NCBI RefSeq assembly: GCF_963677725.1
Contig: NZ_OY782507.1
Span: 2,604,001 to 2,668,000 of the forward strand
Source of the DNA: an uncultured Cohaesibacter sp.
Lineage (GTDB): Bacteria > Pseudomonadota > Alphaproteobacteria > Rhizobiales > Cohaesibacteraceae
Direction of reading: 5' to 3'
DNA length: 64,000 nucleotides
Part shown: piece after piece, positions 28,780 to 64,000 of the stretch
Position numbering within the stretch: position 1 is the first letter of the stretch
Layout of the letters: every line of letters starts with the position of its first letter
Program-made: the position numbers and the translations under genes
The notes under the pieces: model-generated
What the model was told of the DNA's origin: nothing
Database searches by the model: none
What the model saw: the letters and a program-made list of their open reading frames with translations, nothing else

Positions 28780-29067
28780 TTCATGGTTCCCTTTTTGCAC
28801 TTCTCAGAGGCGCGCAGCTCGCCTTCGGGTAAGGCAATCGCGTGAAAAGCCGGGATCAGTTTAGCCGATTAATTCTGTCTTGCTAAGACGGTTTGCATGG
28901 CATGACGGCTCTTGAGGGGATCAAAATATCGCGCTTGTGGGGAATTTTTGCTCTTAACGTCGATTTAACCCGAAACACCCTCTTTATTTTGCCGCTCCAC
29001 TCTTATATGAGGGGTGCCAAATTTTCGAATTTTGTCGCAAAAGCGTTCAAAGTGGTAGGGTTTCAGC
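28780..29067. other. Upstream part of the dnaK intergenic region
   Basis: No gene seen. It holds an exact TTAA-N7-TTAAC motif at 28954-28969 and, further right, the dnaK promoter. Confidence 0.5.
28954..28969. promoter_or_regulatory. CtrA-type box upstream of dnaK
   Basis: TTAA-CGTCGAT-TTAAC fits the Caulobacter CtrA consensus TTAA-N7-TTAAC exactly. It is about 115 bp upstream of the predicted dnaK promoter and 175 bp from the divergent small exported protein gene. Confidence 0.4.
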
Positions 29068-35600: not shown

Positions 35601-36233
35601 TTAGGCGGCGCTTTTTGCCAATCCCTTGAATTCCCCATAGCGCCATGCCTCACGTTGCTTGCGCACGGCATTCATATATATGACCTGTCCGATGGCAAAG
35701 CTGAGCAAGATCATCAGCAAACCGGGAATGACGAGGGTGTAAAGGTAGCTATCGGGATCGGTTTTCAGGAAAACCTTTTCCGGGCGGTCCGGATTGACAT
35801 GCGCCAAGACGGAGCGGCCGACTGAATAGGCAGCAATCTGATGCTTCACTTCGCCAGGCGAATGGGAGCGGATCGGACGAACTGACATGCTTTGCCCGGT
35901 ATAGAGCGTGCCGTCATACATATATTGATATTGGATTTCGGCAGTGAAGACCGGAGTGCCGTCTTCATAGTTCATCCGAACCACATCGGACTTCATAATG
36001 ACTGCCGTCACCTGCTTCCAACTTTGGGCGGTGAAGGCCGTTGAAAAATGCGCAAGACCTACCAAAAACAGTGCAAAGCCGACCACAACAAGCATGAAAC
36101 GCAACAGGCGAACTGATCGGCGTTGATCAAGTGTCAGGCGCGGACGCTGCAATTTCCAGCGATTTGGTTCCCTGATCGGTTGGCGTTCAATTCCCTTGGT
36201 TCCCGGATATACATAGGCAGGTTGGTAACGCAT
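35601..36233 (-). CDS. DUF3592-type membrane protein
   Basis: A 210-residue protein with two hydrophobic segments, near residues 47-70 (LLRFMLVVVGFALFLVGLAHF) and 165-190 (LVIPGLLMILLSFAIGQVIYM). Between them lies an exposed domain with QSWKQVTAVIMKSDVV, AEIQYQYMYDGTLYTGQSM and RSVLAHVNPDRPEKVFLK, the pattern of DUF3592. The function of the family is unknown. The start MRYQPAY at 36233 is chosen; an ATG at 36287 is in frame but would add a hydrophobic lead. Its upstream region is the GANTC/DnaA-box cluster at 36.3-36.6 kb. Confidence 0.78.
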   Translation of the reverse strand: MRYQPAYVYPGTKGIERQPIREPNRWKLQRPRLTLDQRRSVRLLRFMLVVVGFALFLVGLAHFSTAFTAQSWKQVTAVIMKSDVVRMNYEDGTPVFTAEIQYQYMYDGTLYTGQSMSVRPIRSHSPGEVKHQIAAYSVGRSVLAHVNPDRPEKVFLKTDPDSYLYTLVIPGLLMILLSFAIGQVIYMNAVRKQREAWRYGEFKGLAKSAA

Positions 36234-36420
36234 GATCAAAATCTCGAATATCAAAAAAATAGAATTTACAGTGGAATGAAACCACATTTTTCCGGTGTGG
36301 CCTAATGCTGATGAAAGGATACATCATTAGATTAATGATTTTCTTTCGCGATCAGAAAAATTTTATCTTTATGCTTTGCAGATGAAACAAGATTCTCTAT
36401 TTAGGATTTGTTAATAATTA

Positions 36421-36429
36421 TTATCCACA
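36421..36429 (+). promoter_or_regulatory. DnaA box TTATCCACA
   Basis: Exact match to the 9-bp DnaA consensus, preceded by AT-rich DNA and overlapping the first CAGAGTC heptamer by two bases. Confidence 0.5.
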
Positions 36430-36603
36430 GAGTCTTCACAGGCCATCTGATAGGAAAATGCCTCTCTGCCAGAGTCTAACTGGTTAATAATTTCCTTTTA
36501 GTTTGAATGACCAGAGTCATCGCTCGGACTGCAGAGCGATAAACCTTGGCATGCAGAGTCTAGTCCGAGTCTAGCGGCGGCTGACGGAATCCGAGCCAGA
36601 GTC
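36428..36603. repeat. Five CAGAGTC heptamers at 42-43 bp intervals
   Basis: CAGAGTC begins at 36428, 36470, 36512, 36554 and 36597: intervals of 42, 42, 42 and 43 bp, about four helical turns. Each contains GAGTC, a CcrM-type (GANTC) methylation site. DNA between them is not obviously repeated. Further GANTC sites are at 36391, 36567 and 36587. Confidence 0.7.
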
Positions 36604-36679
36604 AAACCGGATTTACGGTTTGTTAATACTTAATGCGGGGAAGTTTTCGTTGCTCGCTGAGCCAGCATCAAGGCACGGT

Positions 36680-37465
36680 TCAACGCGGATCGTGCGTCTT
36701 GTAATGCTTTTTGAACAGAAGGGTTGCAAGCACGGCTTTAAGGCAGCCGAATGGGCCGAACCTGCGCAAACGAAAGCGCCATTCGGCGAGCGGGGCGTTG
36801 GCGGCATCGGTAAAGCGTTTGCGCGCCGGAACAGAGCGATCTCCACCAATCGCATCGATTGAAGAATCGAAAATATTGTTGATCGTGGGCGAGGGGAGGA
36901 TGCCATAAGTCTCCATCCCGTGTTCCCACGGGCGACGCATATCTTCATCGATGGGGCGTTTGCGCAAGAGCTGATAGGTGAGGAATTTCCGGGCCCCCGC
37001 CTTGTTCATGACATAGGCGCCGGCGGTGTTTGGCACCCGCCAATAGCGCACTAGCGAGCCAATGCCCCGCCAAGTCTTGATGATCTGATAAAAGGCTTTC
37101 GCAGGATTGGAGATTCGCACGATCTCCCAATCATCTGGCAGGTCGGCAACGAGGTTCGGCAAGTGTGCGAAATTGTCGGAGAATTGCAGATCGTCTTCCA
37201 TGATGCAGACGGGCTCGTCGGATTCCTGCGCCAGAATATGCTGCATGGCATAGAGGTGACTGGCGTAGCAGCCGATTTCCCCTTTGTTCATGGCGCTGTT
37301 GATCGCCCCTTGCTGATCGAGAAAATAGGGCTTGAGGTCGTCCGGAATGGCCGTGCCAAGAAAGGCCGGTATGCGCTCAGGCGTGAAGCCGCGCCTGGAC
37401 AATGCGTCCGACATATAGGTCAGCCGATCAGAATCCCGATCCAGATTGATAACCAGAAAGCGCAT
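36680..37465 (-). CDS. Glycosyltransferase family 25 protein
   Basis: A 261-residue GT25 enzyme, the family of LPS galactosyltransferases such as LgtB/LgtE. The N-terminal MRFLVINLDRDSDRLTYM, GEIGCYASHLYAMQHIL, the metal-binding CIMEDDLQFSDNF, and NTAGAYVMNKAGARKFL are all typical. It is the last of three minus-strand transferase genes; the next upstream gene ends 11 bp before its start. Confidence 0.88.
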   Translation of the reverse strand: MRFLVINLDRDSDRLTYMSDALSRRGFTPERIPAFLGTAIPDDLKPYFLDQQGAINSAMNKGEIGCYASHLYAMQHILAQESDEPVCIMEDDLQFSDNFAHLPNLVADLPDDWEIVRISNPAKAFYQIIKTWRGIGSLVRYWRVPNTAGAYVMNKAGARKFLTYQLLRKRPIDEDMRRPWEHGMETYGILPSPTINNIFDSSIDAIGGDRSVPARKRFTDAANAPLAEWRFRLRRFGPFGCLKAVLATLLFKKHYKTHDPR

Positions 37466-61854: not shown

Positions 61855-62475
61855 TTAAAACTCCAACCCGTGGTCGCTTCGCAGATAGGACAGCAGCGGC
61901 AAAAGGGGTAGACCGAGAATGGTGAAATAATCGCCTTCAATTTTTTCAAACAATTGCACGCCCAAGCCTTCGAGCTGATAGCAGCCGACGCTGGAGCGGA
62001 CCTGTTCTCCAACCCGGGCCATATAGCGTCCAACCTGCTCAGGACTCAGAGGCCGCATGGTCAGGGTGGCAGTGGAGACGTGACGCCACAATGTTTCCCC
62101 ATCTTTCACACAGGCCACTGCCGAATGGAGCTGATGGCTTTTACCCGCCATTTCAAGAAGTTGGGCACGGGCTGCAGCATCATTTTCCGGTTTGTTAAAT
62201 CGCTTCTCGCCAATGCCGAGCGTCTGATCCGCCCCGATGACCAAAGCACCGGGATTGCGGCTCGACACATCCATCGCCTTCACCTCGGCAAGCAATTCGC
62301 CAATGTCCTGAGCGCTGCCACCGGCCTCGATAAGAGGTTGTTCGGCGGCCCGTTCGTCAATCTGAGCGGTCTCACACGCAAAAGTCAGGCCAGCATTGGA
62401 CAAAAGGGTGGCCCGGGACTGGCTTTTGGAGGCCAGAATCAAAGGAGGCATCGAATTGGTCAAAAGGGTGGTCAT
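61855..62475 (-). CDS. maf: Maf-like nucleotide pyrophosphatase
   Basis: A 206-residue Maf-family pyrophosphatase, which hydrolyses dTTP/UTP or modified nucleotides. It begins PPLILASKSQSRATLLSNAGL (family SxSPRR variant with SQSR), with the conserved VIGADQTLGIGEKRFNKP and EKIEGDYFTILGLPLLPLL. ATGs at 62502, 62475 and 62451 are in frame; 62475 has GGGATCCC upstream. In Caulobacter-type genomes the PpsR-type gene usually lies beside maf; it is absent here. The predicted origin lies directly upstream. Confidence 0.93.
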   Translation of the reverse strand: MTTLLTNSMPPLILASKSQSRATLLSNAGLTFACETAQIDERAAEQPLIEAGGSAQDIGELLAEVKAMDVSSRNPGALVIGADQTLGIGEKRFNKPENDAAARAQLLEMAGKSHQLHSAVACVKDGETLWRHVSTATLTMRPLSPEQVGRYMARVGEQVRSSVGCYQLEGLGVQLFEKIEGDYFTILGLPLLPLLSYLRSDHGLEF

Positions 62476-62649
62476 CAAAGGGATCCCGTATGTGAAAAGC
62501 ACTTTATCACTTTTTAGAGCAAAGAAAGCGGAAGGGAAACTGTTGATGAGGGCTGGACTCGTGGATTCTTCTCACAGATTCAAAAGGATCAATTTGTTTC
62601 AAAATCGAACGATCTGCCTTATCGGCTCTGGTTATCAACGGCGCGAAAA

Positions 62650-62664
62650 TTAACGGTTGGTTAA
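62650..62664. promoter_or_regulatory. CtrA-type box 1 in the predicted origin
   Basis: TTAA-CGGTTGG-TTAA, an exact match to the CtrA spacing. Confidence 0.6.
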
Positions 62665-62962
62665 GAGTGATTCTGTGCAGATTCTGCTTGCCAGCTTCTG
62701 CCAAAATCGCACTTTTTGCGGCTCTGGGTGGGTTATGCCCAAGGCTCAAAAGTGCGGGATAAGGATTTCTACAATCAGATTTTCGGGCTGATTTCTGTCA
62801 CTTTTTTGTCGTGATTGGGTGGTATGTTTGAGTTCGGTGGCTGATTCTTCCCCAAGCCGAATGGGCCTCAGGGGACAAAGTTGGGTGAATCCGGCGTTTT
62901 AAGTTTTTCTTCACTTTTCCCAAAGCGCCATCCCCAAATGCATTTGCGCAGCGTCGCTTTCG

Positions 62963-62998
62963 TTAACCATGTATTAACTTAGGTTAACAAACAATTAA
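62963..62998. promoter_or_regulatory. CtrA-type boxes 2 and 3 in the predicted origin
   Basis: TTAA-CCATGTA-TTAAC at 62963 and TTAA-CAAACAA-TTAA at 62984. Their starts are 21 bp apart, two helical turns, so two dimers could bind the same face. Confidence 0.65.
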
Positions 62999-63049
62999 TA
63001 CACAAAGTGCGCAAAATTCGTTACCAGTTAATCCTCGCATAATTCAGTT

Positions 63050-63078
63050 TTGACATTGCTCCAGCTTTCTGGATTCCT
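63050..63078 (+). promoter_or_regulatory. Possible hemE promoter
   Basis: TTGACA at 63050-63055 is a perfect -35; the hexamer 17 bp later (ATTCCT) is a poor -10. In Caulobacter hemE promoters lie within the origin. Confidence 0.3.
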
Positions 63079-63128
63079 TGGTCAAAATCTACTTTTCCCC
63101 GCTGTTCAATTTGCGGATAGAGGAGACT

Positions 63129-63263
63129 ATGCCGAAATGGGAGAGGGTTTTCCAAGCGATCTGTGACTCAATTGTGGGCGAAAAAGATATCCCGCAATCC
63201 ACTGCCAATAAGAAGAAACAAATCTTAGAATCTAAGAATCTTTTTATAGGAAAAGCCGATTGA
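63129..63263 (+). CDS. Possible 44-residue small protein upstream of hemE
   Basis: An ATG frame preceded by AGGAG three bases away, encoding MPKWERVFQAICDSIVGEKD then a Lys-rich end (KKKQILESKN). It ends 21 bp before the first candidate hemE start. A short helical peptide is possible, but spacing of the ribosome binding site is tight and codon use does not favour it. A CTTAG/CTAAG hairpin with five Ts overlaps its end (63224-63245). Confidence 0.22.
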   Translation: MPKWERVFQAICDSIVGEKDIPQSTANKKKQILESKNLFIGKAD

Positions 63264-63305
63264 AAATGCTCAGATGAGATCCGGATGAAGAGAGAGACGA
63301 AGACA

Positions 63306-64000
63306 GTGACCAAGACAATAACCAACCGGCGCCTGCTGAATGTTCTCAATGGGCAAACCGAGAAGACACCTCCAATCTGGCTCATGCGACAGGCAGGCCG
63401 TTATCTTCCCGAATATCTGGAAACAAGAGCGGAAGCAGGAAGCTTCCTCAATCTGTGTTACAATCCCGAATTGGCTACCGAAGTAACGTTGCAGCCGATC
63501 CGTCGGTTCGGATTTGATGCCTCCATCCTTTTCTCTGACATTCTGGTGGTTCCCGATGCATTGGGGCGTTCTGTTCGCTTTGTGCAAGGGGAAGGGCCGC
63601 AACTCGATCCGATCAGTGTTGAAGAGATCCATGATCTCGATCCTTCCAAGGTCCTCACGCAACTCGGGCCTGTCTTTGAGGCGGTTGAACGGATCCGGGC
63701 CAATCTGCCTGACGAGACCACCTTTCTTGGTTTTTGTGGTGCCCCATGGACCGTTGCCACTTATATGATTGCGGGTCATGGCACCCCGGATCAGGCGCCA
63801 GCGCGGTTGTTTGCGCGGCAGGAACCTGAAGCGTTTGCCAAATTGATCGATGTGCTGGTGGAAGCGTCCATTCTTTATTTGATCAAACAATTGCAGTCCG
63901 GCGCAGACGCTGTGCAGATTTTTGATAGTTGGGCGGGCGTGTTGGATGATGCTCTGTTCCTGTCAGCCAGTCAGGAGCCGATTGCCCGGATTGTGGCAGG
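63306..64000 (+). CDS. hemE: Uroporphyrinogen decarboxylase, N-terminal part
   Basis: Partial gene, open at the right edge. It decarboxylates the four acetate side chains of uroporphyrinogen III in haem synthesis. The N-terminal signature [20 protein letters not shown] with its active-site Arg is clear, followed by [19 protein letters not shown] (catalytic Asp), [19 protein letters not shown] and [10 protein letters not shown]. Start: GTG at 63306 gives [16 protein letters not shown], the family-like beginning, with AGAGAG upstream; an ATG at 63285 is in frame and adds seven residues. About 230 of some 345 residues are visible. Confidence 0.95.

Follow-up and report, generated by a model that had tools for sequence, protein, structure and literature searches.

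The maf–hemE gap

The window, a 64-kb stretch comprising bases 2604001–2668000 of the single 4,625,566-base contig of genome G000, holds near its right end an intergenic gap between maf and hemE. The neighbourhood is made up of a gene for an hslU-like AAA protein, a Tim44-like gene, fxsA, secB, a dnaQ-like exonuclease gene, coaE, aroE, maf and hemE, and is followed to the right of hemE by rho, mnmE, parA and parB, the last two being confirmed by Pfam. A previous sequence-only reading of this DNA had described the gap as 62503–63284; the gap is real and measures 833 bp, with its left edge corrected to 62452 because the Maf start lies more likely at 62451. The closest named relatives in the genome collection belong to Cohaesibacter, the genus meant in what follows. 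No Rfam match was obtained in the gap (E up to 1) or, at gathering score, in the window, and a tRNA search of the window returned none. The features of this region are the following:

61855–62451, minus strand: maf (PF02545)
62452–63284, unstranded: maf–hemE intergenic gap, the proposed origin region (A); skew step here in 7/7 genus genomes
62503–63284, unstranded: 11 GANTC (CcrM) sites, a number not conserved across the genus
62650–62664, plus strand: CtrA box TTAACGGTTGGTTAA; a full box at that position in 0/17 other genus gaps
62849–62854, plus strand: W-box-like TCCCCA (W-box consensus from PMC4285127)
62930–63018, unstranded: surroundings of the CtrA pair, matched by BLAST in 9/17 other genus genomes
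62931–62936, plus strand: W-box-like TCCCCA (consensus from the same source)
62963–62977, plus strand: CtrA box TTAACCATGTATTAA, in the alignment column where 11/18 genus genomes have TAACACTCTGTT
62984–62998, plus strand: CtrA box TTAACAAACAATTAA, 21 bp after the box at 62963
63161–63263, unstranded: pre-hemE stretch (TGTGG...ATCCAC), covered wholly or mostly by BLAST matches in 17/17 other genus genomes
63197–63202, plus strand: ATCCAC core, identical in 20/20 aligned family genomes
63285–64000, plus strand: hemE (PF01208), running off the window

The exact TTAA-N7-TTAA boxes reported earlier for the gap, among them a pair at a distance of 21 bp, were recovered and number exactly three (62650, 62963 and 62984); the window has a single further box, at 28954. 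Under a first-order Markov model of the gap 0.03 boxes are expected, and at least three were reached in 0 of 20,000 simulations. The gap gives BLAST matches in 17/17 genus relatives, and at least one full CtrA box was present in the gap of 17 of the 18 genus genomes. The DnaA-box, W-box, CtrA and IHF motifs were taken from PMC4285127, which gives TAACGCTCTGTT as the Caulobacter IHF site; TAACACTCTGTT, carried by 11/18 genus genomes, lies 1 mismatch from it, and matches of this quality are rare (1 in 340 kb and 2 in 400 kb of two genus genomes). The dual site was not recognisable in the gap of G000, where the best match has 4 mismatches and a full CtrA box stands in the place of the relatives' IHF site. 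The genome carries a CtrA gene, which scores 425 bits with NF045991 (cut-off 350). CtrA binding as in Caulobacter is supported by box conservation and by the Caulobacter-type IHF/CtrA site of the relatives; occupancy and the repression that had been proposed are what we infer.

The stretch 62960–63050, described earlier as AT-rich, is indeed 68% AT, a value reached by only 0.25% of the window's 91-bp stretches, and the gap is absent from the 15 AT-richest 100-bp places listed for 340 kb. With respect to DnaA, no box within 1 mismatch of the consensus TTATCCACA or of the G-box TGATCCACA was found in the gap of this genome, and 15/18 genus gaps lack a box within 1 mismatch of TTATCCACA; one exact TGATCCACA occurs in the gap of the family relative G018. 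What there is for DnaA consists of weaker candidates: four sequences in 998 bp that differ from TTWTNCACA by at most 1 mismatch, the TCCCCA sites and the ATCCAC core. TCCCCA occurs 2–3 times per 600 bp in 18/18 genus genomes against 0.2 in the 340-kb background, and 0 times in both sister-genus gaps. Taken singly, the enrichment gives P < 0.05 in 8/18 genus genomes and above 0.05 in 10/18, this genome alone giving P 0.066 for 2 copies in the last 600 bp of its gap. The pre-hemE stretch 63161–63263 may combine degenerate DnaA sites with the hemE promoter.

The eleven GANTC sites in about 780 bp exceed chance, as had been noticed: 3.5 are expected (P about 0.0009), and this is the densest 782-bp stretch of the window. 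The next clusters over 340 kb hold 9 sites each, and one of these is at window 36.4 kb. The number per gap ranges from 1 to 12 in the 18 genus genomes; the excess is confined to this genome and a few relatives and does not characterise the genus. With such variation, the CcrM control of the origin that the sequence-only reading had put forward is not supported. The genome does have a CcrM-like gene, which among NCBIfam models matches CcrM best, at a score below the curated cut-off (626 vs 830). For Agrobacterium ori1, an effect of CcrM over-expression is called non-significant in PMC11514494.

Strand composition, KOPS and parS around hemE

GC3 skew corrected for gene strand was pooled over 7 genus genomes, with gene calls by a simple script. 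Between −22 and −0.5 kb of the gap r was 0.001 (95% −0.014 to 0.016) and from hemE rightwards 0.140 (95% 0.128 to 0.152), in intervals that treat genes of related genomes as independent. By gene slot, the five maf-side slots nearest the gap average −0.06 to −0.10 in the 7 genomes, and on the other side hemE stands at +0.10, the next gene at +0.05, rho at −0.05 and mnmE at +0.15. Intergenic skew near hemE in the 7 genomes shows the same pattern, with −0.02 far to the left and +0.09 to the right. A GC-skew inflection had been named earlier as a check on the origin claim, and in all 7 Cohaesibacter genomes fetched strand composition steps at the maf/hemE gap. Change points of the raw skew lie 0.4–3.7 kb right of the hemE start in 7/7 genus genomes and at −0.2 kb from hemE in G018. 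Their 95% intervals, which extend up to 13 kb right of hemE, contain the hemE start in 6/7 (that of G008 just excludes it) and in 0/7 the more distant element B described below. Assignment of arms by polarised 6-, 7- and 8-mers was also tried; owing to the low skew of the maf-side arm it yielded no distinct minimum around hemE, and the 8-mers that behaved most consistently in the two arms resembled KOPS (GGGCAGGG, GAGCAGGG).

CtrA boxes are frequently promoter elements, and the second conserved stretch, 63161–63263, abuts hemE, so that the gap could be conceived as lying close to the origin rather than at it, with no role beyond that of a CtrA-regulated promoter region serving hemE and maf. 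The skew step, however, coincides with the gap in 7/7 genomes, and the place matches the hemE-linked origins known in Caulobacter and Rickettsia; a gap with promoter function only is accordingly the least credible of the readings weighed here, and we give it hardly any weight.

Polarity of KOPS was scored with GGGNAGGG or GAGCAGGG in forty 20-kb samples around the chromosome. The maf-side arm holds 9+/76− and the hemE-side arm 61+/3−, with the origin-side switch in the hemE region and the other switch near 0.25–0.35 Mb. Three parS-like places at 2671985–2678155 are the genome's sole matches within 2 mismatches, and parS/parAB lie 4.7–11 kb from the gap. The claim of a chromosome origin at the maf–hemE gap is well supported by the skew step, the KOPS switch, parS/parAB and the position.

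The parS cluster itself deserves consideration as the site of initiation, since the 3' end of mnmE, which lies about 4.5 kb to the right of where hemE starts (G000 2671.8 kb), holds TTATCCACA and TTTTCCACA at 2671817/2671826 together with a GANTC cluster. TTATCCACA is present there in 6/7 genomes, and the 95% skew change-point interval includes +4.5 kb in 6/7 genus genomes. Nevertheless, hemE (+0.10) and the next gene (+0.05) already show hemE-side skew, although rho (−0.05) does not; the DnaA boxes are inside the mnmE coding sequence, and 3 of the 10 GANTC sites listed there in G000 belong to the parS-like GTTTCACGTGAATC. Moreover, the skew of G018 steps at −0.2 kb although the 80 kb fetched from this genome contain no TTATCCACA. 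An origin at the mnmE 3' end is hence regarded as highly improbable.

Some further details of the parS-like sites were recorded. The mnmE–mnmG interval (L032:3980–4140) contains four of them, three being GTTTCACGTGAATC overlapping GAATC, a CcrM site, and the first two are 42 bp apart, beside the two DnaA-box sequences of the mnmE 3' end. Another parS-like 12-mer, GTTTCACGTGAA, occurs at window 59534 and is found 3.5–4.5 kb on the maf side of hemE in 7/7 genus genomes.

Element B and the maf-side arm

Far to the left of the gap the window contains a second region of interest, designated element B:

35601–36233, minus strand: DUF3592 gene (PF12158), 210 aa, its start abutting element B
36234–36680, unstranded: element B, intergenic, with a phased GAGTC array, a DnaA box and an AT-rich stretch, about 26.7 kb from hemE
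36421–36429, plus strand: DnaA-box consensus TTATCCACA, running into the array's first GAGTC
36428–36603, plus strand: CAGAGTC sites at 36428, 36470, 36512, 36554 and 36597 (spacings 42, 42, 42 and 43)

Counterparts of element B were located upstream of the DUF3592 gene in 14/18 genus genomes, 22–30 kb from the hemE gap on the same contig in 12/14 and on different contigs in G009 and G016. The 42-bp register of GAGTC is kept in 10/14, the other four having spacings of about 52, 33 and 21. Pooled over the 14 regions, the 111 pair distances include 59 that deviate by at most 1 bp from a multiple of 42 (7% expected), for a period that was noticed in the data it was tested on and for pairs that are not independent. 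A strict three-copy pattern was met in 7/397 genomes of the order, all in the genus Cohaesibacter (reversed control 1/397), and 16 viral-contig stretches in IMG/VR match the three-copy 42-bp CAGAGTC pattern. Among the 14 regions, TTATCCACA is present in 5 (this genome included), a full CtrA box in 8, both in 2 and neither in 3; element B of G000 is without a full CtrA box.

In G002, G003, G010 and G013 (4/18) no B gene was located near the origin and only remote DUF3592 relatives occur elsewhere, and the B DNA was not found in these four by searches that also missed it in some carriers. G018 and G019 showed no relatives of the DUF3592 B gene, the array was not found in two sister genera, and no GANTC cluster was found on the maf side in G018. 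The array keeps a fixed distance to the DUF3592 start codon across B regions, which suggests that element B may be a cell-cycle-regulated promoter or a methylation-sensing element rather than an origin. Element B also lies close to the start of a run of '+' KOPS.

The proposition that has to be weighed most seriously against the hemE gap is that the active origin of Cohaesibacter has moved 22–30 kb to the maf side, to element B, leaving the hemE gap as a former origin kept as the hemE promoter. It would account for the DnaA or CtrA box in 11/14 B regions, for the 15 of 18 genus gaps that lack a TTATCCACA-type DnaA box and for the KOPS pattern, in which 7/7 genus genomes have an unbroken '+' run to hemE and the last '-' at −22.7 to −40.1 kb, close to B. 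From element B to hemE 31/31 KOPS are '+' in the 7 genomes (2640–2667 kb of G000 and its counterparts), many of them probably common by descent, and their direction is the reverse of that in most of the maf-side arm. For G018, where neither the B gene nor a maf-side GANTC cluster was found, 80 kb were fetched; the 58 kb lying on the maf side contain 2+/8− KOPS and the 22 kb on the hemE side 2+/1−, and '-' KOPS continue up to −2.2 kb.

However, the KOPS switch at element B is not sharp, since 3/7 genomes have KOPS of mixed direction farther left than B minus 5 kb (G001 7+/6−, G014 9+/6−, G004 8+/8−). KOPS were moreover rejected as a fine origin marker, being sparse near hemE and running in one direction on both sides in several lineages. 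In 77 hemE-bearing loci of the order (80 loci, 3 dropped for no hemE match), the KOPS within about 10–12 kb of hemE amount to 18+/30− for the maf side and 53+/36− for the hemE side. In Brucella/Ochrobactrum the few maf-side KOPS are also '+' even though DnaA boxes are present at hemE in 9/9, so KOPS need not mark origins finely, and because KOPS near hemE fail to switch in several other lineages the skew was weighted above them. The skew steps at hemE and not at B in 7/7 genomes, the B gene was not found near the origin in the four genomes named above whereas the hemE gap is matched throughout the genus, and the fixed array–DUF3592 distance is that of a promoter element. Relocation to element B is for these reasons ranked second to the hemE gap and judged unlikely.

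A peculiarity of the chromosome is that its maf-side arm has strong KOPS polarity yet nearly zero replication-linked GC3 skew. In G000 r is about +0.03 to +0.04 on the maf-side arm and about +0.14 on the hemE-side arm, with single samples on the maf side varying from −0.08 to +0.12. Two hemE-side samples near 3.35–3.48 Mb (3349500 and 3465000) have about 0 skew, and a low-GC stretch (36%) was observed at 3118500–3138499; these are likely islands or rearrangements. In G012 the values on the maf side stay within −0.08 to +0.04 from 1.0 Mb onwards, with departures at 0.75 Mb on the maf side (+0.09, KOPS 0+/6−) and at 4.75 Mb on the hemE side (−0.02). The skew of G018 is two-sided and by eye stronger on the hemE side.

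One conceivable cause is that the hemE origin often fires only its hemE-side fork, or that the maf-side fork often stalls, so that the maf-side arm would be copied about equally both ways, its skew being erased with KOPS still pointing to the terminus and the phased GAGTC array with its DnaA or CtrA box forming part of an altered control of starts; we consider this quite improbable. Unidirectional replication has been shown for chromids, according to PMC7858055, and in a limited literature search no main chromosome described as one-armed was met. Both this one-sided skew and the array of CcrM sites phased at 42 bp are oddities of one genus that lend themselves to testing.

The proposed origin and its relation to known systems

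Overall, the maf–hemE gap is very probably the chromosomal replication origin, occupying the same place as the hemE-linked alphaproteobacterial origins, with a mechanism that would involve DnaA and CtrA. As such it is a known kind of origin, and its placement by computation is well supported. In the course of initiation DnaA would bind weak sites with TCCCCA and ATCCAC cores and open the AT-rich stretch near 62960–63050, upon which two forks would be loaded. CtrA may bind the TTAA-N7-TTAA boxes over the AT-rich stretch and block initiation in non-replicating cells, and such repression of the origin is likely; IHF could compete with CtrA at the overlapping TAACACTCTGTT site in 11/18 genus genomes. 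CcrM control at the gap is left out of the preferred reading.

Element B invites a comparison with the origin of Vibrio chromosome II, which has GATC-containing iterons: both possess helically phased repeats, each with a methylase site, near a DnaA box. The two differ in that element B carries GAGTC/CcrM rather than GATC/Dam sites at a 42-bp spacing, has no initiator gene identified and lies in a position suggestive of a promoter.

For the gap the closest parallel is Cori of Caulobacter crescentus, which is flanked by ppsR (RP001) and has parS/parAB within about 10 kb. The likeness comprises the place beside hemE, the TTAA-N7-TTAA boxes, the skew boundary, the nearby parS/parAB and, in 11/18 genus genomes, the dual IHF/CtrA site with 1 mismatch; the W-box-like TCCCCA may be a further point of resemblance. 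Unlike Cori, the gap of this genome has no G-box TGATCCACA within 1 mismatch, no ppsR beside it and a full CtrA box in place of the IHF site. A search for ppsR (PF03618) did not find it in G000 and found it in the control Caulobacter. Gap lengths in the genus fall into two classes, about 0.6–0.8 kb in 11 genomes and 1.3–1.5 kb in 7, suggesting that ppsR may have been lost in part of the genus.

Within the order, Brucella/Ochrobactrum, Rhizobium, Ensifer/Sinorhizobium and Mesorhizobium share the neighbourhood, hemE and maf again standing on opposite sides. Within the 450 bp that precede hemE these four groups have a full CtrA box in 0/54 loci and a DnaA box (at most 1 mismatch) in 54/54, largely the reverse of Cohaesibacter; Roseibium/Stappia loci are mixed (CtrA 4/10, DnaA 9/10), and ten other loci of the order have CtrA in 1/10 and DnaA in 10/10. 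Altogether 73 of the 74 other loci of the order carry in these 450 bp a DnaA box with at most 1 mismatch to TTATCCACA or TGATCCACA, against 14–26% by chance. PMC4433202, on S. meliloti, describes an origin with no CtrA motif and not bound by CtrA, and PMC2877005 states that Brucella CtrA does not bind the origin. A limited literature search yielded no paper on a Cohaesibacter replication origin. On motif content, the Cohaesibacter origin looks more like that of Caulobacter than like those of the studied members of its own order, because CtrA boxes and, in most members, an IHF-type site are present in the genus and full CtrA boxes are absent from the 54 order loci. It is its place in the tree that makes this CtrA decoration of interest: conserved CtrA boxes, mostly with an IHF/CtrA site, in the order of S. 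meliloti and Brucella offer a natural comparison for the loss or gain of direct CtrA control of replication.
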